Assembly: GCA_017406775.1 (NCBI GenBank)
Contig: JAFQXV010000001.1
Location: forward strand, 1-64,000
Length of the DNA stretch: 64,000 bases
Direction of reading: 5' to 3'
DNA from: Candidatus Saccharimonadota bacterium
GTDB lineage: Bacteria > Patescibacteriota > Saccharimonadia > Saccharimonadales > Saccharimonadaceae
Shown here: positions 1,509-61,895 of the stretch, piece after piece
How the letters are laid out: each line of letters opens with the position of its first letter
Numbering within the stretch: the stretch's first letter is position 1
Translations under genes and position numbers: made by a program
Notes under the pieces: model-generated
What the model was told of the DNA's origin: nothing
Database searches by the model: none
Seen by the model: the letters and a program-made list of their open reading frames with translations, nothing else

Positions 1509-1975
1509 CCTCTAACTCCTGTAATTGTTGAATAAATATCTTTTTTAGCTCGCTGCCAATCCTGATTTTCCAAAACCATATCATCGGGCAACGCAACAAT
1601 GTTACGTAAGACCTCAATCTGACCATCACGATTGCTCATTTCAGTATAAAAATTTAGCAACGTATTCAAAATAAAAAAGCGTTCTTGATTAGTAATATTT
1701 TGCTCTTTTTGCAATCCATCCCTTAATAAGGAAATAGCCTCGTCTTGCATGCCATTATAATATAACAAAATAGCCTTGTAGTATCTAGCGTCAACTCGTT
1801 CAGCTTGGACATCACTATTAGTTATTAGATTATTTAAATAGTCCAATAATTCATCATAATCCTGAGAATTGCCCTCGCCATACATATAACTGCTTATAGC
1901 ATCGTTTAGTTGCTCCGAATCAATCTTCCCAAATTTGCTTTCGTTACTTAGAGATTGCTGCCCATTGCTCGCCAC
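1505..1975 (-). CDS. Helical TPR-like protein, probably lost its membrane anchor by a frameshift
   Basis: This frame gives 156 residues, mostly helical, with TPR-like spacing (YYKAILLYYNGMQDEAISLLRDGL and a following helix pair). The only in-frame start near the 5' end is a GTG at 1975 with no ribosome-binding site. Directly before it lies a run of seven T (minus strand, 1976-1982), and a 46-residue transmembrane frame (1948-2088) ends just past it. One extra T would join the two into a protein of about 195 residues with an N-terminal anchor and an extracytoplasmic helical domain. The gene is followed by the secreted protein at 1-1508 through an ATGA overlap. Role unknown; perhaps a scaffold partner of its neighbour. 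Confidence 0.6.
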   Translation of the reverse strand: MASNGQQSLSNESKFGKIDSEQLNDAISSYMYGEGNSQDYDELLDYLNNLITNSDVQAERVDARYYKAILLYYNGMQDEAISLLRDGLQKEQNITNQERFFILNTLLNFYTEMSNRDGQIEVLRNIVALPDDMVLENQDWQRAKKDIYSTITGVRG

Positions 1976-2088
1976 AAAAAAATCAAAGATATCAACACGA
2001 TAATAGCAATAAGAAGGCCAATTAATACCGCAACCAAACTAGTCTTCGTCTTACCAGATTCTATTTTTTGCGAATCTTCAACTTCCAC
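1948..2088 (-). CDS. Short single-TM frame, likely the 5' part of the gene at 1505-1975
   Basis: From a GTG at 2088 this encodes 46 residues: a charged N-terminus (VEVEDSQKIESGKTKT), then one strongly hydrophobic helix rich in L, I and V, then WRAMGSNL and a TAA at 1948. A TATAAT box (2096-2101) sits seven bases upstream of the GTG, so the transcript would be nearly leaderless. It overlaps the next frame by 28 bases across the T7 tract. It could be a real microprotein, but a TM anchor ending exactly at a homopolymer before a soluble helical domain reads better as one gene split by one base. Confidence 0.4.
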   Translation of the reverse strand: MEVEDSQKIESGKTKTSLVAVLIGLLIAIIVLISLIFLWRAMGSNL

Positions 2089-2114
2089 GTTTACAATTAT
2101 ACCATAACCATTTA

Positions 2115-3329
2115 TTATTTACTAAATTTTTTTCTGAACCATTCATCTGCTGGTCCAGCTGTCATCATAATTACCAAATAATTGTTGTCAATGTATTTTT
2201 TTAGCTGATTGCTTAATTCATCACCAAGCTCCGCCGCTTCAGCAATTTCAGAGTTGACTAAATCTTCTATAAATTCCTCGGGTTTAATTACCTTTAGCCC
2301 TGGATTCTCTCGCGTTAAATAAGTCGGCAACCAAAAGATTTTATCTGCTTCCATAAAGGCGCTTTTGTATCCTGCCTTTACTTCGTGCTGCCTAGTATTT
2401 TGATGCGGCTGATAAACCACAACTACACCCTTTTTACCAGTTTTCTTTGCCTCGTCCTTGCAAACATTTATAGTTGCAGCAATCTCCTCCGGATGATGAG
2501 CATAATCTGTATAAACACCATCCGCAATCTTTTCAAATCTCCGACCTACGCCAGGAAAATTGTTTAATAAATGCACTACTTCAGCATGAGAAATCCTAGG
2601 CGCCATCTCCATAATCGCCACCGCTGCCAAACTCGCATCTTTCCGTCTTTCCGCTCCAGCTAATTTAAGCTTTTCTTCAAAAACCCCTCTTTCTATAACC
2701 TTTCTACTTTGGCTCTTAAACTGCTCAAAAGCCTCAATATATGATTCTCTAGTAGGATAGATATCCGGATGGTCATAAGAAATAGACGGAATTACTGCAA
2801 GCCATGGACGATATTTCAAAAAATTCCGATCGTACTCATCCGCCTCATAAACAAAAAACTTGTCACCTTTATGATACGCTCCACTCTGCGCAAACCCAAG
2901 CGTAGTCCCCACTATATAAGCCACCGGTAGCTTAGCCTTTAAGGCCGTCCACACAATCATTGCCGTAGTAGTAGTCTTACCGTGTGTGCCGGCCACTGCC
3001 ACCATTTTTAAGCCCAACTTATCTACTAAAAACGCCGTAAAATCGTCCCTTTTTGTACATTTTAATCCTGCTTCTTTCGCCATTAAAAGTTCTGGATGAT
3101 CTTCTGGCAAAGCAGAAGTATATACAAACCAATCAATATTTTGCAATTTGTTTTTCAAAAATTCGCCGTCTTGTTTACCAATCTTAATTTCTATTCCCGC
3201 TTTAATTAGCTCATCATAAACGGCACCTTTCGCTAAATCCGAACCCCAAACATTAAATCCAGCCGCCTTAGCCATCAACGCCAAAGGCCCCATGCCAGTC
3301 CCAGAGATGCCAGAAATATATATATTCAT
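2115..3329 (-). CDS. murC: Mur ligase, MurC/Mpl-type UDP-N-acetylmuramate ligase
   Basis: This 404-residue protein begins with the Rossmann-like motif GISGTGMGPLA, carries the ATP-binding loop GTHGKTTTT near residue 114, the central motif EADEYDRNF, and the C-terminal YAHHPEEI typical of MurC and Mpl. MurC adds L-alanine to UDP-MurNAc in the cytoplasm during peptidoglycan synthesis. It is shorter than most MurC proteins (about 450-490 residues), the central domain looking trimmed. The start faces the tsaE start across 18 bases holding overlapping TATAAT-like sequences on both strands. Mpl (murein tripeptide ligase) is the alternative; murB elsewhere in the window favours a biosynthetic role. 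Confidence 0.78.
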   Translation of the reverse strand: MNIYISGISGTGMGPLALMAKAAGFNVWGSDLAKGAVYDELIKAGIEIKIGKQDGEFLKNKLQNIDWFVYTSALPEDHPELLMAKEAGLKCTKRDDFTAFLVDKLGLKMVAVAGTHGKTTTTAMIVWTALKAKLPVAYIVGTTLGFAQSGAYHKGDKFFVYEADEYDRNFLKYRPWLAVIPSISYDHPDIYPTRESYIEAFEQFKSQSRKVIERGVFEEKLKLAGAERRKDASLAAVAIMEMAPRISHAEVVHLLNNFPGVGRRFEKIADGVYTDYAHHPEEIAATINVCKDEAKKTGKKGVVVVYQPHQNTRQHEVKAGYKSAFMEADKIFWLPTYLTRENPGLKVIKPEEFIEDLVNSEIAEAAELGDELSNQLKKYIDNNYLVIMMTAGPADEWFRKKFSK

Positions 3330-3347
3330 GATATAATATATTATACA
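3330..3347. promoter_or_regulatory. Divergent promoter between the Mur ligase and tsaE
   Basis: The 18 bases between the two start codons are almost palindromic (TATAATATATTATA) and give a -10 element for each direction. There is no room for a leader with a ribosome-binding site, so both transcripts should be leaderless or nearly so. Confidence 0.55.
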
Positions 3348-3764
3348 ATGAAAATTACCTCAGAACAAGAAATGATTAAATTTGGCGAAGAATTCGCAAC
3401 GTCCCTACTCAAGCCAAATTCGCCCTCCGTAATTGAGCTTATTGGTGATGTTGGTGCCGGCAAAACTACTTTTGTACGCGGCCTGGCCAAAGGTCTAGGT
3501 ATTAAAGAGCCCATTACTAGCCCTAGTTTTACCATTTCAAAATCTTACGCATTGCCAAATAACCGTTACTTGGTCCATTATGATTTTTATAGACTTGGCG
3601 ACCCCGGCCTCATGGTAGAAAACTTTTACGAAAATATCAGTAATTCAAGCAATATCGTTCTTATAGAATGGGGTGAATCAGTTAAAAACCTTTTACCCGA
3701 TAACCATATTACCATAACAATTAATTACAATGACGACAATACACGAAAGGTTAAAATAAAATGA
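3348..3764 (+). CDS. tsaE: tRNA threonylcarbamoyladenosine ATPase TsaE
   Basis: At 138 residues this matches the usual TsaE length. It has the Walker A motif GDVGAGKTTF near residue 34, the TSPSFTI segment (TsaE TSPTF), a HYDFYRL motif and LIEWGE near the end. TsaE is the small ATPase that works with TsaB and TsaD to transfer threonylcarbamoyl to A37 of ANN-reading tRNAs. The stop overlaps the start of the tsaB-like gene (ATGA), so the pair is translationally coupled. tsaD and tsaC are not in this window. Confidence 0.92.
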   Translation: MKITSEQEMIKFGEEFATSLLKPNSPSVIELIGDVGAGKTTFVRGLAKGLGIKEPITSPSFTISKSYALPNNRYLVHYDFYRLGDPGLMVENFYENISNSSNIVLIEWGESVKNLLPDNHITITINYNDDNTRKVKIK

Positions 3765-4093
3765 ATCTATACCTAGATACCTCAACTAGAGAGACTATTT
3801 TAAAATTAGACAACCAAGAATATCATTATATTTTTGACCGAGACTTAGCCGAAAAATTATTAAAATTCATCAACGATAAACTAGCCGAAAATGGCAAAAC
3901 TTGGCAGAATATTACCAAAATTACTTTTATGAGCGGCCCAGGTTCTTTTACTGGTCTACGTATCGGCGCTGCTATTATCAATACACTTGCCTCAGAATTG
4001 AATATTCCACTTTACGACCATCACGGCAAAAAACACCCGATTATCCTCCCCGAATACGGTCACCCAGCCAATATTTCTAAACCAGTAAAATAA
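3761..4093 (+). CDS. tsaB: Half-length TsaB-like protein
   Basis: The 110 residues match the N-terminal half of TsaB: an actin-like start (MNLYLDTSTRE) and the diagnostic MSGPGSFTGLRIG motif. TsaB normally has two ASKHA subdomains and about 220 residues; here the reading frame stops soon after the first. It overlaps tsaE by four bases, which supports the assignment. The N-terminal half carries the known TsaD-binding surface in the family, so a minimal partner is plausible, but decay is possible. The next gene is convergent and starts its stop codon at the following base. Confidence 0.75.
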   Translation: MNLYLDTSTRETILKLDNQEYHYIFDRDLAEKLLKFINDKLAENGKTWQNITKITFMSGPGSFTGLRIGAAIINTLASELNIPLYDHHGKKHPIILPEYGHPANISKPVK

Positions 4094-5224
4094 TTATTTC
4101 TTGTTGTTTAATAAACTTTTTGCCAGCACCACAGAAAATATCGCAACCACCACTATAACCATTCCCTCCACCATCGCCATAATTAAATATCCACGCGTAG
4201 TATCCGGATGTACTACTAAGCTTTCACCAAGTGGCGCCACATATGATGGATCTGAAGGATCATAGGCAATTTGCACCCCATCATCCGCATTGGCGAAATC
4301 CGTATTCACTACGTTTAAACTCATTTTGTTAAACTTTATATTAAATTCTGAACCGTCAGCATCGCGATCTGCATGAAAAATTCTTATCACCGCACCTTCA
4401 TCTTTTTTAACATTAATACCAGAATAGGCTGGCTCTTGATCTTGTATTCCCGAATAAACTTCGCCGTCTTGAGTAATCAACAACTCACCCTTAATTGCAT
4501 CATGGATTCCGCCTAAATCAATTGCAAGCTCGTCACCAACAAACACAAAGGTATCATCGTCAGCTTTTATTTCCAAGCTTTCCTCTCCGCTAGCTAAAAC
4601 CGTAAAAGGTACCGCAAAATTCATTGTAAATAAATGGTTGTGTCCATCCGTATTTACAAAATCACCTTCACTAAAGGCTACCTCATCTAATGGATAAAAC
4701 TTTTCGTCTTCAAAAACAAAGGCAGTGTCCTCCTGCCGATAAGTTAGCATCAAACTCCCAGAATAGCTCTGGCTCTTGCCATCCACGTTATTAAACCAAC
4801 GATTAATATCTTGTACTCCCTTGTTTGGTAGCAATTCGCCTCCACTCCCCACAAGCTCAAACTTGCTATTTAGTTTATAATCTACTAGTCCTTGTTCAAT
4901 ATTCTTATTATAATAACCACATTCAGACCATTCAAATTGTCTATCGTTAAGCGCCTCTGCATTTGCCTTATCGTATAAATTAACGCATGGGTCTGCTTTC
5001 TGGTCATAATAAGAAACTGCCAACTTTACGTTCTGCCCCTCAGTTACCCCTGCACTCGCCAAAATCGCATCCGGAGTTTTGGCTATTATATTTTCATGAA
5101 TTTTTTCAATCGAATTAGAAATCCCCACCACCGCAAGTATAGATCCAAAACAAAGCACCACTAGCATTATTACGCCAAAGCACTGCATTCTTCTATGTTG
5201 CCTCTGAATCTTCTTTGCGCTCAT
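4094..5224 (-). CDS. Membrane-anchored fibro-slime (PA14-like) surface protein
   Basis: The 376 residues have TM helices at about 16-36 and 345-370, with a large extracytoplasmic domain between. Residues about 135-295 show the fibro-slime signature: FTMNFAVPF, then IKADDDTFVFVGDELAIDLGG and a following H, matching the DDD-W/F-V-F-x-DLGGxH pattern. Such domains are found in extracellular matrix and cell-surface proteins. The start has a TATACT about ten bases upstream and no clear Shine-Dalgarno. It is followed head-to-tail by nothing on its strand: tsaB ends one base away on the other strand. Function beyond surface location is not known. Confidence 0.75.
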   Translation of the reverse strand: MSAKKIQRQHRRMQCFGVIMLVVLCFGSILAVVGISNSIEKIHENIIAKTPDAILASAGVTEGQNVKLAVSYYDQKADPCVNLYDKANAEALNDRQFEWSECGYYNKNIEQGLVDYKLNSKFELVGSGGELLPNKGVQDINRWFNNVDGKSQSYSGSLMLTYRQEDTAFVFEDEKFYPLDEVAFSEGDFVNTDGHNHLFTMNFAVPFTVLASGEESLEIKADDDTFVFVGDELAIDLGGIHDAIKGELLITQDGEVYSGIQDQEPAYSGINVKKDEGAVIRIFHADRDADGSEFNIKFNKMSLNVVNTDFANADDGVQIAYDPSDPSYVAPLGESLVVHPDTTRGYLIMAMVEGMVIVVVAIFSVVLAKSLLNNKK

Positions 5225-5264
5225 AGCTATTTTTAGTATAAGTCTTTTTTAATTTAAAATCAAG

Positions 5265-8200
5265 TTATTCCACTGTCCACGGATCCGTAGCGGTACCACT
5301 ACCACTCGTTACCAAAGTGTATGCATTAAACGATATTACTGGGCGGACACCCTTCTTATATGTAACGGGTTCTCCTCCAGCATTACCAGCCCTTGAGTCT
5401 AAGAAATAAGTCACAACATGTTGGCCTTGTCGCCAGCGTGGTGACATTGTCCAAAAATCGTTTCCAGAGTTTAAGAAGGACTTCAGACTAAACGCGGTTT
5501 GGCCAGCTGAGTTGCCATGCCCCGCAAAGACCAACTCATCCGCTGTTATTAAGGCAATTGGCGCAGTAAGCTGTTTATTGCCATTACTTGATCCACTTGT
5601 AGTATACAAATCTACCGTAGATCTCGGGCAACTTAATGTTGGTTCTTTATTAGTAGTATAAACTCTTACCTCTGGACCAAAGTTATAGCCAGTTACGCCA
5701 GTTTTATTATCATAAGGCACAATACTTGCAGATTGAGATACGGGACCATAAGAAGTGCTATACAAAGATCGATCATTGCAATATCCAGCACTACCCTCAA
5801 GCTTACTACCTATATTAGAGATGGTACTGGCAAAAGTACCTTCTATATATTTTTTGATGTTAGATTTAGTGCTGTTTACTGAGTAATTAGAGTCACTTCC
5901 AAAGATAGAGCTCACAACTGCCGCCGATGTTGCCGTTGTCTTAGCATAAGTAGCATTATAAGAGTATCCTACCGCGACTATACTATTCGCAACAGCATCG
6001 GATGTACTAGAATAAGTAATGCTAGTTGTCTGCGCATTGGTAGTCGATCTTGCGCACGTACCGTTAGAATACTTACCATTATAAATCATCTTTACGCCAC
6101 CAGAACCAGTAGTCCTAATAATTCTCCAGCATTGCCCATTACTAGTTTTAACATAGTTTGGATATGCATCTGCTAAACCATCCGATCCATAAGTGCCTAA
6201 TCCAGTATTAGTATCAAGAATACCACGATAGAAATAAATTGGGTCCGTATTCGCAGCGTCAGAAGAAGTTCCATAAATATCAGCATCGTATTTATACACG
6301 CCAGAATTTGCCTGCGTAATCCTATCCGATAGGTTAACATTATTTTCCGCCAAAGTTCCTTTGCTCTGACTTTCTACTCTATCATACAAGAAACCACCAT
6401 ATACACATCTTACGCTCTCGCCATAACTCTTGTCTGTCCAGCCATTACCAGGCCAAATACTATCCGCGCCAAATCCTACATGAAGAGCTTGCGATGCGTT
6501 ACCAACCGTAGAAGAGAAATAATTCCCCGTTTCACCAAGCTCCGTCATAGTATTACCGCTTAAATAGCCAGAATAAACAAAGTTATTCGGGAATTTTCGC
6601 CATCTATTAGATGCTGCCGCCGTCTCCTCGTTAGTGTTACTACCACCCAATGCCTTATTTAGATAAATAAATCCACCAGTAGTGTCACCACCCTTTATTG
6701 CGGTCAAAGCATTTCCGTATGGCACAAACCAACCCATTGGACAAACAGACGAATAGGAAATCACCCATTTTTCAGAATTACGCTCAGTAGTGTTTGCTAC
6801 AGTAGCTGGCCAGTTATAATAATTACCATAACTATATATATTTTGGCTATCAGCAGTCGCCACAGCAACCGGTGAAGTCGTATTAGTATTATTATAGCGC
6901 GGAATTCGGTATCCTTGGTTATTGCCAGTTACATTATCGGTACTATATAGGCTATTTGCTACTGTAGAATTTTCAAAATTCTCGCTTTCAGAGTTTGCCA
7001 AACCAATGAACGCACCACCAAAGCCCTGTGTTTTTGCCCTCAAGGTACTACCAACAGTGCTTAGTCTCAAGTTTTCAATCATCCAGCAATTGCCATCCGC
7101 CAATTTAGATACAGCATATACATTATTATCACGCGTATCGGTTAACCCAACGACCGCACCAGATGACAAGCTGCCACATCCATTCCAATTTTGCAAATTA
7201 CCACTAGATTTAACCCAAATCGCATACATAGTAATCTCGCCTTGAGAATTCGCCCTCATCATCATAGCATTGTTAACGGTAATAGTTTCATTTGGACCAT
7301 ATACAGTACCCAACCTTACCGCCTCCGCTAATTCATCCGCAAAATTATTAGAATTCGGGTCAAGCTGCGTAGCACTCCATCCCGCAAAACCATATCCTGC
7401 TTTTTTGTAGTTTGCTGCATGAAGTGTAACCGTATCGCCAATTTTTACACCCTCATGATCCATATCCATACTAATACCAGCATCAGAATTATTGCCATCA
7501 TAAGTAATGGAATATTCCCTACCCACCAAGCAGCGTAGCGTCATACCATATCCCTTATCATTAGATCCATTACCAGGATAAGCACTAGTATTATCTATAC
7601 TCATTCTCCACGAACCCCCTCCGCCATTTGATGTCGAAGACCACCATCTTCCATAAACCCCTCTATTTACAGCCGAAGAGTTTTCATAATCACCAGCATA
7701 GACAAAATTCCCTGGGAATTTTCGCATCATCTTAGAAGCGTCCGTACCCTCCGTACCTTCCGTGTTAAAATATCTAGTCCGTCCCTCGGTCCAATTATCG
7801 TTTGGTGGATACCCAACTACGCCTATCATCATAAATCGAATGGTATTATTGCTATTATTTGCATCAGTTCCACCCACTGGCAATCGCCAACCAGTTGGAC
7901 AAAGAGAAGAACTTTCCACAGACACTCCGACCGTAGAATGGTCATCAGTGTCAGCAATCGCTGCAGCCCACGTATAATAATTCCCGTACTCATATACATT
8001 CTGGTCAGCTGCAGTCATATCCGCAACAGAAGAAACAGTATTATTACTATTATATCGCGGGTAACGATACCCTGCATTTACCCCAGTTATATTACTTGAA
8101 CTATATATACTATTTGCCGCAGTAGAACTAGTAAAATGACTAGTTTCTGGATTCGCCAACCCTTCAAAGTTACCCCCAAACCCTTGTGCTTTAGTCTCAT

Positions 8201-10403
8201 CAGATGAGCCAGTAGTTCCAAGCCTCAAATTCTCAATCATCCAACAGTTGCCATCAGGATACTTAGTCACTGCATACACCATATTATCACGCGTGTCTCT
8301 TAACCCAATCACATCCCATACCTCTAGTTCACCACATCCATTTGTATCATCCCACCCCTGCATATTGCCAGAAGGTTTTACCCAAACCGCATACAAAGTT
8401 ATCTGATTATTAGCGTCGGCTTTCTCAGCTAAAGCGCGGTTTACGGTAATACTTTCATTCGGCCCGAACACTAGCCCTTGGCCAGCTGCACTCTTTAAGT
8501 CGGTCGAAAAACTGCTGGACTCTGGATTAAGCTGCTCAGTACTCCAACCAGCAAAACCATAACCCGCCCTACGATAATTAGATGCATACAGCATTTCTTC
8601 GTCACCAATTGAAACATCATTATGCGCTACCGACATCGTGTATCCACTATCTGCCGAATTACCGTTATACACAATATCGTATTTTACATTCAATATACAA
8701 CGAACAGAGAAACCATATCTCTTATAATAACCTGTGCTAACCGCCGGAAGAAAGCTCAACTCACTAATATACGAATTATACGAAGCATTTTGGCTACTGG
8801 CTGTAGCCGTCCAGTAACGCAAATTGGATCCTCGATTAGTAGCCGAATCTCCGTCCCATCTTCCCGAAAAAATATGATTATAAGGATACTCTCTAAGTTT
8901 CAAAGACATTGCTTCACCAGTTGGATCCGTCGAACTATCCATATCAACATCCAGCCCACCCAAAGATTTGCTCAGCCGTACAAAATCACCGTCACTTTTC
9001 CCTATTGGCAAATGCCAACCAGCAGGACAAATATCACCAGCAACACTCGCTGCGGATACACTATAAGTCCCCAACCCAGCTGTAGCTGCTCTCCAGCTAT
9101 AATAATTCCCATAACTATAAATGTTCGCATCTTGCGTCGAAGACATATCCGATATGAAGTTTCTTACATTATCTGTATTTATCCAAGATTGATCGTAGCA
9201 ACTTTGACTCATATCCGTACACCAATTCCGGCTAGATACCGGGAGCGCATATCCAGTTTCCGGATTATTAGTATCTGAGTTATCTAAAGCTACGGTGCTA
9301 TCCAAACGCAAATTTTCCATCATCCAACAATTACCATCTGCCAGTCTGCCCACAGCATATACATTACCATCTCTTATATCCGTCAGCGCCGTTACCTCGC
9401 CAAAATCCATACTGGCACATCCTGTCCAATTCTGCATGTTACCGCCCGATTTAATCCAAACCGCGTATAACTTAATATTATTTGACGCATCCGCATAACT
9501 TATTACATCATTATTAGCCACTATCGTAGCGTTGGGACCAAAAATCAATCCATTATTAACCAAATCATCCAAATCGCTGGAAAACGTCTGCGAATCTGGA
9601 TCTAACTGCTCCGTACTCCAGCCGGCGAATCCATATCCATCTCGCTTATAGTTAGGCGCATATAAAGATACCTCATCGTTCTCCCACACCTGCTCATTTT
9701 TTATGGACATCCCTATCCCAGAGTCGGACTCGTTTCCATCATACGAAATAGTGTATGGTTGACAAGCCATAGATACAGTCGCAAAATACACCAAAGATCC
9801 ATCTACCTGTTCACTATCCTTTACCATTTTATATGTACCAGCCTCAATATCAGTCGAGGTAGCCACACCATAATAAACCGGGAAAACATCATCCACGTCA
9901 GTCTCGCTCATCACTCCACTTTCCGTCTTAATCGATGCTGCAGTCATATTAGCAGCTGGCACGGCATTAAAAATACTACTAGTAGTAGGGGCTATACTAT
10001 TATTATAAAAATATCCCCACGTATTCGGCGCATTATTAAGGACTGTCATGCCATTCGAAGGAGAAAAGAAAGTCCCAGCTGCGTTCTTCTTGCTACTATC
10101 ACCATCTAAATACAGATTCGTATCATTGACTGATGTTTTTAATGACATATTATACCCTGCGCGACAATTCGTGATTACTTCTATTTCATCAGAACTAACA
10201 GTAGCCGTTACGCTATCACCAGTAAGCATATCAATGCTCTGTGCGCCACTTGTAGTAATCGATAGATCATAGTCGGCTGCAAAAACTAAATCATCACTCA
10301 AACAAATGCAATTTATTAAAACAAAGCCAAAAGCAAAAAGAACCGCACATGCTATGCTTGTACTTTTACTTATATTTTTTGTTTTCAATAACGCACCTGT
10401 CAT
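5265..10403 (-). CDS. Giant secreted protein with three InlB-like/FISUMP repeats
   Basis: This 1712-residue protein has a signal peptide (hydrophobic stretch 18-35, cleavage near VFAA). Three long repeats start near residues 215, 571 and 962. Each begins with an InlB-B-like module (YDGN..SDxG, then AGYGFAGWS, ending YAVWVK) and continues as a FISUMP-type module (DxRDxxVYAV..DGNCWMxENLRL, then CPxGWxLP, ending SVRC). The C-terminal 370 residues differ and contain a second type of module (NGQCWRIIRTT, then FWTMSPRW and KGVRPVISF). Cysteines sit at conserved places (NGCG, GNCW, CP.GW, RC), suggesting disulfides. No sorting motif or C-terminal TM is visible. Likely an adhesin or structural surface protein; FISUMP modules are known from bacterial secreted proteins. 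Confidence 0.8.
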   Translation of the reverse strand: MTGALLKTKNISKSTSIACAVLFAFGFVLINCICLSDDLVFAADYDLSITTSGAQSIDMLTGDSVTATVSSDEIEVITNCRAGYNMSLKTSVNDTNLYLDGDSSKKNAAGTFFSPSNGMTVLNNAPNTWGYFYNNSIAPTTSSIFNAVPAANMTAASIKTESGVMSETDVDDVFPVYYGVATSTDIEAGTYKMVKDSEQVDGSLVYFATVSMACQPYTISYDGNESDSGIGMSIKNEQVWENDEVSLYAPNYKRDGYGFAGWSTEQLDPDSQTFSSDLDDLVNNGLIFGPNATIVANNDVISYADASNNIKLYAVWIKSGGNMQNWTGCASMDFGEVTALTDIRDGNVYAVGRLADGNCWMMENLRLDSTVALDNSDTNNPETGYALPVSSRNWCTDMSQSCYDQSWINTDNVRNFISDMSSTQDANIYSYGNYYSWRAATAGLGTYSVSAASVAGDICPAGWHLPIGKSDGDFVRLSKSLGGLDVDMDSSTDPTGEAMSLKLREYPYNHIFSGRWDGDSATNRGSNLRYWTATASSQNASYNSYISELSFLPAVSTGYYKRYGFSVRCILNVKYDIVYNGNSADSGYTMSVAHNDVSIGDEEMLYASNYRRAGYGFAGWSTEQLNPESSSFSTDLKSAAGQGLVFGPNESITVNRALAEKADANNQITLYAVWVKPSGNMQGWDDTNGCGELEVWDVIGLRDTRDNMVYAVTKYPDGNCWMIENLRLGTTGSSDETKAQGFGGNFEGLANPETSHFTSSTAANSIYSSSNITGVNAGYRYPRYNSNNTVSSVADMTAADQNVYEYGNYYTWAAAIADTDDHSTVGVSVESSSLCPTGWRLPVGGTDANNSNNTIRFMMIGVVGYPPNDNWTEGRTRYFNTEGTEGTDASKMMRKFPGNFVYAGDYENSSAVNRGVYGRWWSSTSNGGGGSWRMSIDNTSAYPGNGSNDKGYGMTLRCLVGREYSITYDGNNSDAGISMDMDHEGVKIGDTVTLHAANYKKAGYGFAGWSATQLDPNSNNFADELAEAVRLGTVYGPNETITVNNAMMMRANSQGEITMYAIWVKSSGNLQNWNGCGSLSSGAVVGLTDTRDNNVYAVSKLADGNCWMIENLRLSTVGSTLRAKTQGFGGAFIGLANSESENFENSTVANSLYSTDNVTGNNQGYRIPRYNNTNTTSPVAVATADSQNIYSYGNYYNWPATVANTTERNSEKWVISYSSVCPMGWFVPYGNALTAIKGGDTTGGFIYLNKALGGSNTNEETAAASNRWRKFPNNFVYSGYLSGNTMTELGETGNYFSSTVGNASQALHVGFGADSIWPGNGWTDKSYGESVRCVYGGFLYDRVESQSKGTLAENNVNLSDRITQANSGVYKYDADIYGTSSDAANTDPIYFYRGILDTNTGLGTYGSDGLADAYPNYVKTSNGQCWRIIRTTGSGGVKMIYNGKYSNGTCARSTTNAQTTSITYSSTSDAVANSIVAVGYSYNATYAKTTATSAAVVSSIFGSDSNYSVNSTKSNIKKYIEGTFASTISNIGSKLEGSAGYCNDRSLYSTSYGPVSQSASIVPYDNKTGVTGYNFGPEVRVYTTNKEPTLSCPRSTVDLYTTSGSSNGNKQLTAPIALITADELVFAGHGNSAGQTAFSLKSFLNSGNDFWTMSPRWRQGQHVVTYFLDSRAGNAGGEPVTYKKGVRPVISFNAYTLVTSGSGTATDPWTVE

Positions 10404-31380: not shown

Positions 31381-31420
31381 TGGTGCGGGTAGAGAGAAAT
31401 TCTTCTCTCGGCCCCACCCC
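31381..31420 (-). repeat. 3'-end copy of tRNA-Gly rebuilt as a hairpin
   Basis: The 3' 18 bases (TTCTCTCTACCCGCACCA) equal the tRNA-Gly 3' end. The T-arm is replaced by GAGAGAA-GAAT-TTCTCTC, and an upstream GGTGGGG pairs with CCCGCACC (one bulge). A TTTTTGTTT run follows. The result resembles an acceptor/T-arm minihelix used as a terminator. Confidence 0.75.
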
Positions 31421-31464
31421 AAAGAACAAAAAAATAAGAGCAAGCTCTCATTTTTTCGTTCTTA
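31421..31464 (-). terminator. Palindromic terminator after tRNA-Gly
   Basis: AAGAACGAAAAAATGAGAGC pairs with GCTCTTATTTTTTTGTTCTT almost perfectly and ends with a T-run. Confidence 0.6.
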
Positions 31465-31539
31465 TGGTGCGGGTAGAGAGAATCGAACTCTCATCTCAAG
31501 TTTGGAAAACTTGCATACTAACCACTGTACTATACCCGC
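31465..31539 (-). tRNA. tRNA-Gly (TCC)
   Basis: Acceptor GCGGGTA/TACCCGC, anticodon stem CAAGT/ACTTG with loop TTTCCAA, T-arm GAGAG-TTCGATT-CTCTC, discriminator A and encoded CCA. It follows tRNA-His on the same transcript. Confidence 0.95.
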
Positions 31540-45044: not shown

Positions 45045-45473
45045 TTAATAACTAGGAAAAAGAAACATCCACCATTTTTCTATATTCGAATACTGTTTTT
45101 CAACCTCAGGCACCGTTTTCTGTTGATGCTTATTTTTAGCAGCTTCTGAATTTTCCGGCAACACTACCATATTTTCCCCCGCCAGCTTTTTATCTAAATT
45201 TCGCCTCGCCATCAGTTCTTGATATTCATTAGAAGAATAATATTCGTTTTCAAGCTCCGCCGCTTCAACTTCAATGCTGATTAGCTCCAACTCTTTTCGC
45301 TCGGCTGATAACCTTTCTGATAATTCCCAGTTTCTAGACATTGCCAAAATCGATTGATATGTCCAGGTCAAACACAAAATCACCGCAATTAAAAGTGCCA
45401 CATTTTCCACAGAAAAAAAATCATGTCGCATCTTATAATTAAAACGTCGCAGCTTTAAGTTGATTTTGCTCAT
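45045..45473 (-). CDS. FtsB/DivIC-like septum protein
   Basis: Starting at the ATG at 45473 (MSKINLKLRRFNYKMRHDFF), the 142 residues form a short cytoplasmic tail, a TM helix (about 25-44), a coiled coil (about 50-95, LSAERKELELISIEVEAAEL) and a short tail with a YSNIEKWWMFLFP end. This is the arrangement of FtsB/DivIC divisome proteins, which join FtsL and FtsQ at the septum. Leaderless TATAAT-ATTAGT-ATG. The open frame continues upstream through the tRNA-copy repeats but is not translated from there. Confidence 0.7.
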   Translation of the reverse strand: MSKINLKLRRFNYKMRHDFFSVENVALLIAVILCLTWTYQSILAMSRNWELSERLSAERKELELISIEVEAAELENEYYSSNEYQELMARRNLDKKLAGENMVVLPENSEAAKNKHQQKTVPEVEKQYSNIEKWWMFLFPSY

Positions 45474-45479
45474 ACTAAT

Positions 45480-45485
45480 ATTATA
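45480..45485 (-). promoter_or_regulatory. -10 box, leaderless spacing
   Basis: TATAAT, then ATTAGT, then ATG at 45473. Confidence 0.72.
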
Positions 45486-45511
45486 ACAAAAAACCGCCAG
45501 AATGGCGATTG

Positions 45512-45631
45512 TGGTAGGGGTGCCTGGATTCGATTCGTAGAACGAATCCAGTATTTTAGGCATCTGGAGCCTGGTAGGGGTGCCTGGATTCGATTCGTAG
45601 AACGAATCCAGTATTTTAGGCATCTGGAGCC
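45512..45631 (-). repeat. Two 60-base tandem units holding the 3' end of tRNA-Ile
   Basis: Units 45512-45571 and 45572-45631 are identical over 60 bases. Each ends, on the minus strand, with 22 bases identical to the tRNA-Ile 3' end including CCA. In front is a palindromic CTGGATTC...GAATCCAG arm with an inner GATTCG-TTCTA-CGAATC hairpin, in place of the normal T-arm. Confidence 0.9.
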
Positions 45632-45708
45632 TGGTAGGGGTGCCTGGATTCGAACCAGGGACACTGCGTGTATAAGACGCATGCTCTAACCAACTGAGCT
45701 ACACCCCC
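45632..45708 (-). tRNA. tRNA-Ile (TAT)
   Basis: Acceptor GGGGGTG/CACCCCT, D-arm GCTC/GAGC, anticodon stem TGCGT/ACGCA with loop CTTATAC (anticodon TAT), variable loop GTGTC, T-arm CCTGG-TTCGAAT-CCAGG, A73, CCA encoded. Reads AUA directly instead of through the lysidine-modified CAU tRNA. Confidence 0.88.
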
Positions 45709-54636: not shown

Positions 54637-54678
54637 TGGCGGAAGGGACAGGATTCAATTCGAAGAACGAATCCTATC
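54637..54678 (-). repeat. 3'-end copy of tRNA-Ser
   Basis: Its last 20 bases (GAATCCTGTCCCTTCCGCCA) equal the tRNA-Ser 3' end. In front, AGGATTCGTTCTTCGAATT completes a palindromic arm (AGGATTC/GAATCCT). The arm sequence is nearly the same as in the tRNA-Ile copies (GGATTCGTTCTACGAATC). Confidence 0.85.
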
Positions 54679-54702
54679 TTTAAAAACACCTCGATAGAGG
54701 TG
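54679..54702 (-). terminator. Terminator of tRNA-Ser
   Basis: CACCTC-TATC-GAGGTG followed by TTTTTA immediately after the tRNA CCA. Confidence 0.8.
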
Positions 54703-54788
54703 TGGCGGAAGGGACAGGATTCGAACCTGCGATACTTTCGTATGCTGGTTTTCAAGACCAGTGCCATCAACCACTCGGCCACCCTTCC
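54703..54788 (-). tRNA. tRNA-Ser (TGA)
   Basis: Type II tRNA with long variable arm (CATACGAAAGTATCG), acceptor GGAAGGG/CCCTTCC, loop with anticodon TGA, discriminator G73 as in Ser tRNAs, and CCA. Confidence 0.95.
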
Positions 54789-57476: not shown

Positions 57477-57553
57477 GCACCCGTAGCTCAGTGGATTAGA
57501 GCACTTGTCTTCGGAACAAGGTGTCGTAGGTTCGAATCCTATCGGGTGTACCA
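57477..57553 (+). tRNA. tRNA-Arg (TCG)
   Basis: Acceptor GCACCCG/CGGGTGT, anticodon stem CTTGT/ACAAG with loop CTTCGGA (anticodon TCG), T-arm GTAGG-TTCGAAT-CCTAT, A73 and CCA. A TATAAT lies about 10 bases upstream. Shares its acceptor with tRNA-Arg(CCG) at 58860. Confidence 0.95.
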
Positions 57554-57561
57554 AATAACGG

Positions 57562-57590
57562 AAAAATAAGAGTTTACTCTTATTTTTTTG
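57562..57590 (+). terminator. Terminator of tRNA-Arg(TCG)
   Basis: AAAAATAAGAG-ttta-CTCTTATTTTTTT. Confidence 0.85.
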
Positions 57591-57707
57591 CTATTTGAAA
57601 TACCGGGCGGGGATTATCAATCCCTCCCGGTATACCAATAATTGGTTAGTTCAAGTGAAATTGTGACAATCAATAAAAACTCTCCTTTTAAAAAGAGGGT
57701 ATTTTGA

Positions 57708-58859: not shown

Positions 58860-58934
58860 GCACCCGTAGTTCAACGGATAGAACGTTGGTTTCCGGAACC
58901 AATGATATCGGTTCGATTCCGGTCGGGTGTACCA
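58860..58934 (+). tRNA. tRNA-Arg (CCG)
   Basis: Acceptor GCACCCG/CGGGTGT, anticodon stem TTGGT/ACCAA with loop TTCCGGA (anticodon CCG), T-arm ATCGG-TTCGATT-CCGGT, A73 and CCA. Confidence 0.94.
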
Positions 58935-58973
58935 AACAAACAAAAGTAAAATTTATTTTAGTTTTGCTTGTTT
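58935..58973 (+). terminator. AT-rich palindrome after tRNA-Arg(CCG)
   Basis: AAACAAACAAAAGTAAAAT pairs with ATTTTAGTTTTGCTTGTTT with two mismatches around a TT loop. Confidence 0.5.
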
Positions 58974-59012
58974 GCAACCCGAAACGGAACTGTTTTCCGG
59001 TCGGGTGTACCA
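58974..59012 (+). repeat. 3'-end copy of tRNA-Arg(CCG) rebuilt as a minihelix
   Basis: The last 18 bases (TTCCGGTCGGGTGTACCA) equal the tRNA 3' end. In front, GCAACCCG and CGGAA supply new 5' strands that pair with CGGGT and TTCCG. A T7 run follows. Confidence 0.85.
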
Positions 59013-59410: not shown

Positions 59411-59487
59411 GGTACTGTAGCTCAGCTGGTTAGAGCGTGGGACTCATAAGCCCAAGGTCGGTGGTTCAAGACCACCCAGTACCACCA
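59411..59487 (+). tRNA. tRNA-Met elongator (CAT)
   Basis: Acceptor GGTACTG/CAGTACC, anticodon loop CTCATAA (CAT), T-arm GTGG-TTCAAGA-CCAC, A73 and CCA. No C1-A72 mismatch, so not the initiator. A CAU-Ile tRNA is the alternative, less likely because a TAT-Ile tRNA is present. Confidence 0.9.
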
Positions 59488-59532
59488 TTTTTTTTATTCC
59501 AGAAAACCAAGTTAGCCCGGAACCACGCGAAC

Positions 59533-59576
59533 CTTCGGTGCGGTGGTTCAAGACCACCCAGTACCACCATTTTTTA
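59533..59576 (+). repeat. 3'-end copy of tRNA-Met
   Basis: 29 bases up to the CCA (from CGGTGG to CACCA) plus the T-run equal the tRNA-Met 3' end, so this copy keeps the natural T-arm. The preceding GAACCACGC...GCGGTGGTTC segment, with a CCTTCGG loop, closes a new hairpin. A T6 run follows. Confidence 0.85.
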
Positions 59577-61602: not shown

Positions 61603-61644
61603 CTACAAACAGAGACAATAATAAAATCATATATCTAACTTATA

Positions 61645-61895
61645 TATAATAATCTTTTACTTTTGTAATTTAAAGGCTAAAAACTTAAAAAAATAGTGAT
61701 GGAAAGCCGGTACTAAAATACCGGAAGGCTTCCATCTGATTATTTTTTTAAATTATATAATAATCTTTTACTTTTGTGATTTAAAGGCTAAAAACTTAAA
61801 AAAATAGTGATGGAAAGCCGGTACTAAAATACCGGAAGGCTTCCATCAAATTATTTTTTTAAGTTTTTACCTATACAAAAGTAAAAGATTATTAT
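61645..61895. repeat. Duplicated hairpin unit inside an outer palindrome upstream of dnaK
   Basis: Two 111-base units (61645-61755, 61756-61866) differ at only a few positions. Each contains the hairpin GATGGAAAGCCGGTA...TACCGGAAGGCTTCCATC and outer arms CTTAAAAAAATA/TATTTTTTTAAG. AATAATCTTTTACTTTTG at each unit start is complementary to CAAAAGTAAAAGATTATT at 61876-61893, closing the whole. Confidence 0.88.

Follow-up and report, generated by a model that had tools for sequence, protein, structure and literature searches.

Introduction

Repeats lying downstream of the tyrT tRNA gene of Escherichia coli have been known since 1978 and, to our knowledge, their purpose and origin are still unsettled. 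In E. coli K-12, the RtT units (RF00391) found after tyrT and tyrV are 175–178 nt long and share a suffix of 19 nt with the tRNA gene that they follow, and in the tyrT unit a left arm, GGGGAAGGAT, pairs with the tail, ATCCTTCCCC, over a 10 nt complement. A scan for tail copies found units also behind argV/Y/Z/Q, lysT/W/Y/Z/Q and lysV, in all behind 12 of the 39 tRNA genes scanned, although the argY match in this count really belongs to argZ, whose copy falls within the range scanned from argY, so that the number of independent loci is slightly smaller. In PMC4986893, with citation of Bosl and Kersten 1991, RtT RNA is described as freed during tRNA processing and as linked to the stringent response, of which it is a proposed modulator. 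The rtT repeat has also been described as BIME-like (PMC2965389), and the RtT copy number differs between Salmonella strains, where it forms a 175 bp VNTR (PMC2658671).

Here, we describe an array of much shorter units that ends a tRNA-Ile locus in a tiny gut-dwelling member of the Candidatus Saccharibacteria. We think it probable, short of firmly established, that the array consists of minimal, Saccharibacteria-specific tRNA-tail repeats of the RtT type, which spread between tRNA genes and expand by slippage. Our searches, which covered open-licence papers, turned up no account of such units from Saccharibacteria or Patescibacteria.

Results and Discussion

Anatomy of the tRNA-Ile array

In the window, by which we mean the whole stretch of 64,000 nt that was analysed, the locus is made up as follows.

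45632–45708, minus strand: tRNA-Ile(UAU) gene with encoded CCA (ARAGORN, anticodon TAT)
45572–45631, minus strand: unit 1, 60 nt (sequence, TRF)
45512–45571, minus strand: unit 2, identical to unit 1 (sequence, TRF)
45631–45619, minus strand: hairpin 1 of unit 1, GGCTCCAGATGCC (sequence)
45618–45612, minus strand: A-rich linker of unit 1, TAAAATA (sequence)
45611–45603, minus strand: left arm of hairpin 2 of unit 1, CTGGATTCG (sequence)
45602–45593, minus strand: loop of hairpin 2 of unit 1, TTCTACGAAT (sequence)
45593–45572, minus strand: tail copy of unit 1, with the 9 nt that follow T55 as the right arm of hairpin 2 (sequence)
45488–45507, minus strand: hairpin resembling an intrinsic terminator, CGCCATTCTGGCG followed by T6, after the last unit (sequence)

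The repeated tail, TCGAATCCAGGCACCCCTACCA, is the last 22 nt of the tRNA-Ile gene (T55 to A76, including the CCA), and unit 1 begins at the base right after the CCA of the tRNA. Read 5′ to 3′, each 60 nt unit consists of GGCTCCAGATGCC, the linker TAAAATA, CTGGATTCG-TTCTACGAAT-CGAATCCAG and then GCACCCCTACCA, with the G preceding the latter shared. The second hairpin has the tRNA tail as its 3′ arm, and its 5′ arm is a complement of that tail. Over positions 45512–45653, TRF reported a period of 60 with 100 % matches. The whole array sits between the tRNA and the terminator-like hairpin. A mechanically called ORF (45045–45623, minus strand) has its ATG start within unit 1; the true start is probably the ATGAGC near 45474, past the terminator and a TATAAT box.

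The locus had been singled out in a sequence-only reading, and its central description, a tRNA-Ile with two exact and identical units of 60 bases, each ending in 22 bases identical to the 3′ end of the tRNA with CCA, was reproduced by ARAGORN, TRF and direct comparison of the sequences. That the tRNA is "followed by" the units is right as to their order, and with the tRNA on the minus strand they lie at lower coordinates. The same reading saw a palindromic replacement of the T-arm, which has to be modified. There is no simple replacement; rather, the unit retains the 3′ strand of the T-stem together with the 3′ half of the T-loop, imitates the 5′ strand of the T-stem and has a larger loop (CTGGATTCG-TTCTACGAAT-CGAATCCAG).

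Tail units behind other tRNA genes

The genome from which the window comes (G000, a draft of 720 kb that is 99.6 % complete) was scanned using tRNA-centred stretches. Within 260 nt downstream, tail copies were found behind 17 of the 47 tRNA genes, with 22 units in total, and in every case the tail is that of the unit's own tRNA. Because no upstream or inverted tail copies were ever seen, reversed-tail controls gave no match at any of the 47 genes, and as many as 17 of these genes have copies, chance is excluded as an explanation. The units belong to a short class of 58–69 nt (the type seen at the tRNA-Ile locus), a short class with a larger loop, a class of 75–87 nt in which a perfect AT-rich terminator hairpin precedes a minihelix with the tail at its end, and a class of longer units. 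Five further units lie in the window.

54637–54702, minus strand: unit of 66 nt, of the tRNA-Ile kind, after tRNA-Ser(UGA) (54703–54788), with core GGATTCGTTCTTCGAATTGAATCC and exact tail (scan)
31381–31464, minus strand: unit of 84 nt after tRNA-Gly(UCC) (31465–31539), longer type with terminator hairpin, minihelix and exact tail (scan)
58935–59012, plus strand: unit of 78 nt after tRNA-Arg(CCG) (58860–58934), with exact tail (scan)
59488–59569, plus strand: unit of 82 nt after tRNA-Met (59411–59487), with exact 29 nt tail (scan)
57554–57637, plus strand: minihelix unit of 84 nt after tRNA-Arg(UCG) (57477–57553) (sequence)

The tail of the tRNA-Arg(UCG) unit has drifted yet is self-consistent (TACCGGG...CCCGGTA followed by CCA). 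Tandem units of this kind had been judged unusual for bacterial tRNA genes, a view that is only partly right, as the RtT repeats of E. coli tyrT are of this kind and such units are common in this genome.

Two other observations were made in the same genome. A run of T residues stands right after the CCA in many tRNA genes (tRNA-Thr, -Trp, -Gln, -Met and -Asp), as if these tRNAs used their own acceptor/T-arm as a terminator hairpin. An intergenic part of the window (61643–61862) holds two tandem repeats of 111 nt that are 97 % identical and contain an internal palindrome, GGAAGCCGGTA...TACCGGAAGGCTTCC.

Tail length and pairing of the arms

The identity between a unit and its tRNA begins in the T-loop and extends to the end of the tRNA, and in 35 of 40 units that carry the core defined below the length of this common suffix is exactly 22 nt. 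Pairing of the left arm with positions 59–62 of the tRNA is seen in 41–43 of 52 units, and the pairs at these positions include A-T, G-C and C-G combinations; pairing is weak at position 63 and near chance at position 64. At orthologous tRNA-Ile loci, both sides of the stem have changed, with ACTCG...CGAGT in one genome (G009) and ATTCG...CGAAT in the window genome. The loop of hairpin 2 ranges from 10 to 20 nt among units, and hairpin 1 often includes the CA of the CCA, paired with TG. Selection for a function might explain why hairpin 1 and the left arm are perfectly paired. In a few units (L086 and L114), the left arm fits another tRNA better than it fits the unit's own tail, and the sequences of these misfit arms are suggestive of transfer between tRNA genes.

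Gain, loss and turnover of units

Within one genus, the presence of units varies between species, which indicates gain or loss. A tRNA-Ser(TGA) gene with conserved downstream DNA is followed by one unit at one locus (L096) and by none at another (L118), and for tRNA-Ala(GGC), again with conserved downstream DNA, one unit (L141) is matched by an empty site (L113). Ser(GGA) loci have two units versus one, and Gln(CTG) loci differ in their sets of units, the tails of which match their own tRNA. The same tRNA-Ile is followed by three different units in L093 versus two identical units of 79 nt in L058, and in L112 five units have a common diverged tail. Independent assemblies of other species contain arrays of 2, 2, 2 and 5 units in the form of identical or near-identical tandems.

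The identity of the two units had been put down to a recent duplication or to strong conversion, and this reading is supported by the comparison: identical tandem units of differing types occur in several species, and from one species to another (Gln, Tyr and Ser) each tail changes in concert with the tRNA that it follows, matching it even where the orthologous tRNAs differ.

The genomes in question are drafts, and two contigs (L110 and L111) end within arrays, as might be expected if the array were an artefact of assembly. An artefact is very improbable, given that dozens of species share the pattern. Many species, each assembled independently, have single or multiple units that differ in sequence, and units of this kind are also present in the finished genome of E. 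coli.

Distribution of the core and of longer units

A search of 84,980 genomes with the 21 nt core AYTCGTTCTWCGAATCGARTC found it in 36 contigs, 35 of them from Candidatus Saccharibacteria, mostly ruminant-gut MAGs, and one unrelated. After 38 of the 43 copies of the core, CCA stands at the exact tRNA distance. When up to two mismatches were allowed, the core was present in 11 of 48 genomes of the window's genus and in none of 32 genomes from other families of the order; hence, within the sampled order, it is confined to the window's genus. In these other families, longer units with an exact tail (104–193 nt, often behind tRNA-Lys) were found at 7 of 68 tRNAs, and in the rest of the phylum none of 79 tRNAs had a tail-bearing unit. 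Rfam searches of the units at permissive thresholds gave no credible match to a known RNA family other than tRNA.

Behind tRNA-Lys genes of several families (L082/L247, L083, L215, L248, L259 and L261) we observed units of 178–193 nt with multiple hairpins, in which a closing stem is formed with the tRNA tail and which are stable mainly on the tRNA strand; they are a possible ncRNA family. A conserved structured motif, UAGGAGnYGAG-hairpin-GRnnCGACGCC, enclosed within compensating stems, was also seen in and beside tail units. It lies downstream of tRNAs in L093, L120, L003, L059, L033 and L043, and none of the loci that were scanned gave an Rfam match for it.

Strand preference and the question of an RNA function

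Units that lie between a tRNA and its terminator, as those of the window do, might be functional RNAs. Cleavage of the pre-tRNA at each CCA would then free RNAs of 60 nt ending in a tRNA tail, which could act in the manner of RtT RNA or as decoys of the tRNA tail. We regard this as rather unlikely for the window array, though it has a precedent in the RtT RNAs, which PMC4986893 reports as freed from the transcripts of tyrT and other tRNA genes and ties to the stringent response. The stability of the units bears on the question differently in the two size classes. Among units of at least 95 nt, the tRNA strand gives the more stable fold in 13 of 15 cases. In the short class, wobble analysis of hairpin 1 counted 21 G-T against 15 A-C, indicating no preference for the RNA strand, folding of the parts of short units in sense and antisense revealed no strand bias, and whole short units are slightly more stable on the strand opposite the tRNA. 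The coming and going of units between species of one genus also speaks against such a function. An RNA function deduced from strand bias is thus supported for the long units and unsupported for the short class. The missing RNA-strand bias of the short form is best fitted by a passive repeat with side effects as a terminator or trailer.

Proposed mechanism

A unit is a hairpin module that follows a tRNA gene at once and has a copy of the 3′ end of that tRNA as its own end. If the array is indeed an RtT-type tail repeat that expands by slippage, each insertion would leave the tRNA with a restored tail, in most cases beside a terminator, and would be harmless for that reason. Slippage or unequal recombination between the 22 bp tail copies, aided by the hairpins, would make arrays longer or shorter and keep them uniform. 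Modules would spread to further tRNA genes through template switching or recombination at two landmarks, the T-loop, TTCGANTCC, and the CCA and, as these are common to all tRNAs, the new copy would gain the tail of its target. Template switching is suggested by the junctions, and an enzyme may insert the units in its place. Units that precede the terminator would be transcribed with the tRNA and, by analogy with E. coli RtT RNA, cut at the CCA. The benefit of the 60 nt form would be at most a trailer or terminator role, and it would be mainly a harmless repeat at the level of DNA. A bolder version, in which a dedicated single-strand or RNA-templated insertion system copies the tail of its target, making these units mobile tRNA-tail cassettes and the RtT units of E. 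coli remnants of the same ancient system, seems to us quite improbable.

Recombinases, cargo and attachment sites

Of the two PF00589 genes in the genome, the universal Xer has nothing out of the ordinary. The other encodes a second Xer-like recombinase, which co-occurs with the core among the 48 genomes of the genus (6/9 versus 2/39; Fisher p = 1.7e-4, uncorrected for phylogeny); of 26 genomes with the core, 14 lack it. We observed that the Xer-like gene adjoins paired surface-protein genes of the MKKxxIAGA... type (L156, L159, L161, L163, L164, and L128, at C3:28500–33500 of the window genome), the 5′ ends of which are perfect inverted repeats of 79–149 bp with no core-like site. From this sequence context, it looks like a phase-variation invertase for surface proteins. 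As it adjoins an inversion system that lacks core sites and is missing from 14 of the 26 genomes, it was dropped as a candidate for the mover of the units.

This candidate belonged to an explanation under which the units are hairpin cassettes without cargo, inserted at the T-arm of tRNA genes by a tyrosine recombinase in the manner of integrons. Inverted arms do flank a variable loop, as in the imperfect hairpins with variable terminal loops that end the units of attC arrays, at one locus (L126, positions 1740–8760, in G040 C43) 7 kb of cargo separate tRNA-Leu(GAG) from a core hairpin with a tRNA-Leu tail, and the recombinase and core co-occur as described. The cargo encodes a zinc-finger protein with 12 copies of DUF4379 and several uncharacterised genes, but no integrase was found in it. 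The loop, at 10 to 20 nt, is also unlike a duplex core site, the tail is tRNA-specific, no integron integrase was seen with the units, and the attC boxes GTTRRRY / RYYYAAC are missing from the 60 nt unit when both strands are read. With the recombinase resembling an invertase, we consider integron-like insertion doubtful.

Phages frequently use tRNA 3′ ends, and the units might be the attachment-site remnants of phages or plasmids that repeatedly integrated there and were lost. At T-loop att sites, too, the duplicated part of the tRNA starts in the T-loop and runs to the 3′ terminus. The units differ from such sites in being compact hairpins in tandem with a constant 22 nt tail, in having the same core behind many tRNAs, and in having cargo in only one case; no integrase was seen beside any short unit, and the core found no match in 2.9 million viral contigs. 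A phage origin was rejected as the core is missing from the viral contigs, and we hold att remnants in general to be highly improbable. For annotators, it follows that copies of tRNA tails are not necessarily attachment sites.

Comparison with REP/BIME and RtT repeats

Like REP and BIME elements, the units are short intergenic palindromes able to act as terminators. They differ in being strictly tied to tRNA tails, and a search of this genome for the Y1 (RAYT-type) transposase (PF01797) gave no match.

The RtT repeats are closer. Neither RF00391 nor any other Rfam model matched the window unit, and the claim of kinship consequently rests on architecture and on the relatives of the unit. In 80 Saccharibacteria genomes, RF00391 had no match above its gathering cut-off, and among the weak matches 4 of the best 5, and 5 of all 8, fell on tail units, where the downstream stretches bearing tail units made up approximately 0.75 % of the sequence searched. 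A tandem-GA hairpin (NNNGAGC-loop-GCGANNN, with covarying ends) occurs in 15 of 113 units (11.7 kb) versus 5 occurrences in 645 kb of background, and several units of both groups have it. It is on the tRNA strand in E. coli and in the long Saccharibacteria units, on the other strand in four short units (the Trp, Gln and Tyr units of this genome and the Gln unit of L086), and absent from the window unit. Since removal of GAGC/GCGA from the Tyr unit leaves a loop of the window kind, the 60 nt form may, to judge from its sequence, be a shortened and inverted derivative. The kinship could also be a matter of convergence.

Both kinds of unit stand directly behind a tRNA gene and occur in tandem, both end in a tail copy of their own tRNA with CCA (a shared suffix of 18–19 nt in E. 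coli and of 18–22 nt here), and both have a 5′ arm that is complementary to the tail and closes off the domain with it (CTGGATTCG/CGAATCCAG here and GGGGAAGGAT/ATCCTTCCCC at tyrT). They differ in length (60 nt here versus 98–178 nt), in the strand of the GA hairpin where this is present in short Saccharibacteria units, and in distribution, as here 17 of 47 tRNA genes and many isoacceptors are involved and the core is limited to one genus. Units of the RtT kind are found in a distant phylum with reduced members, in many species and, in one genome, at a third of all tRNA genes. Because dozens of related species offer empty sites, length variants and co-changing arms as comparative material for the old puzzle of the tyrT repeats, both the origin of such units (slippage or mobility) and their function (RNA or passive repeat) become testable. 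The feature is real and widespread; tail repeats of the RtT type were already known, and what is new is their short form in a distant phylum.
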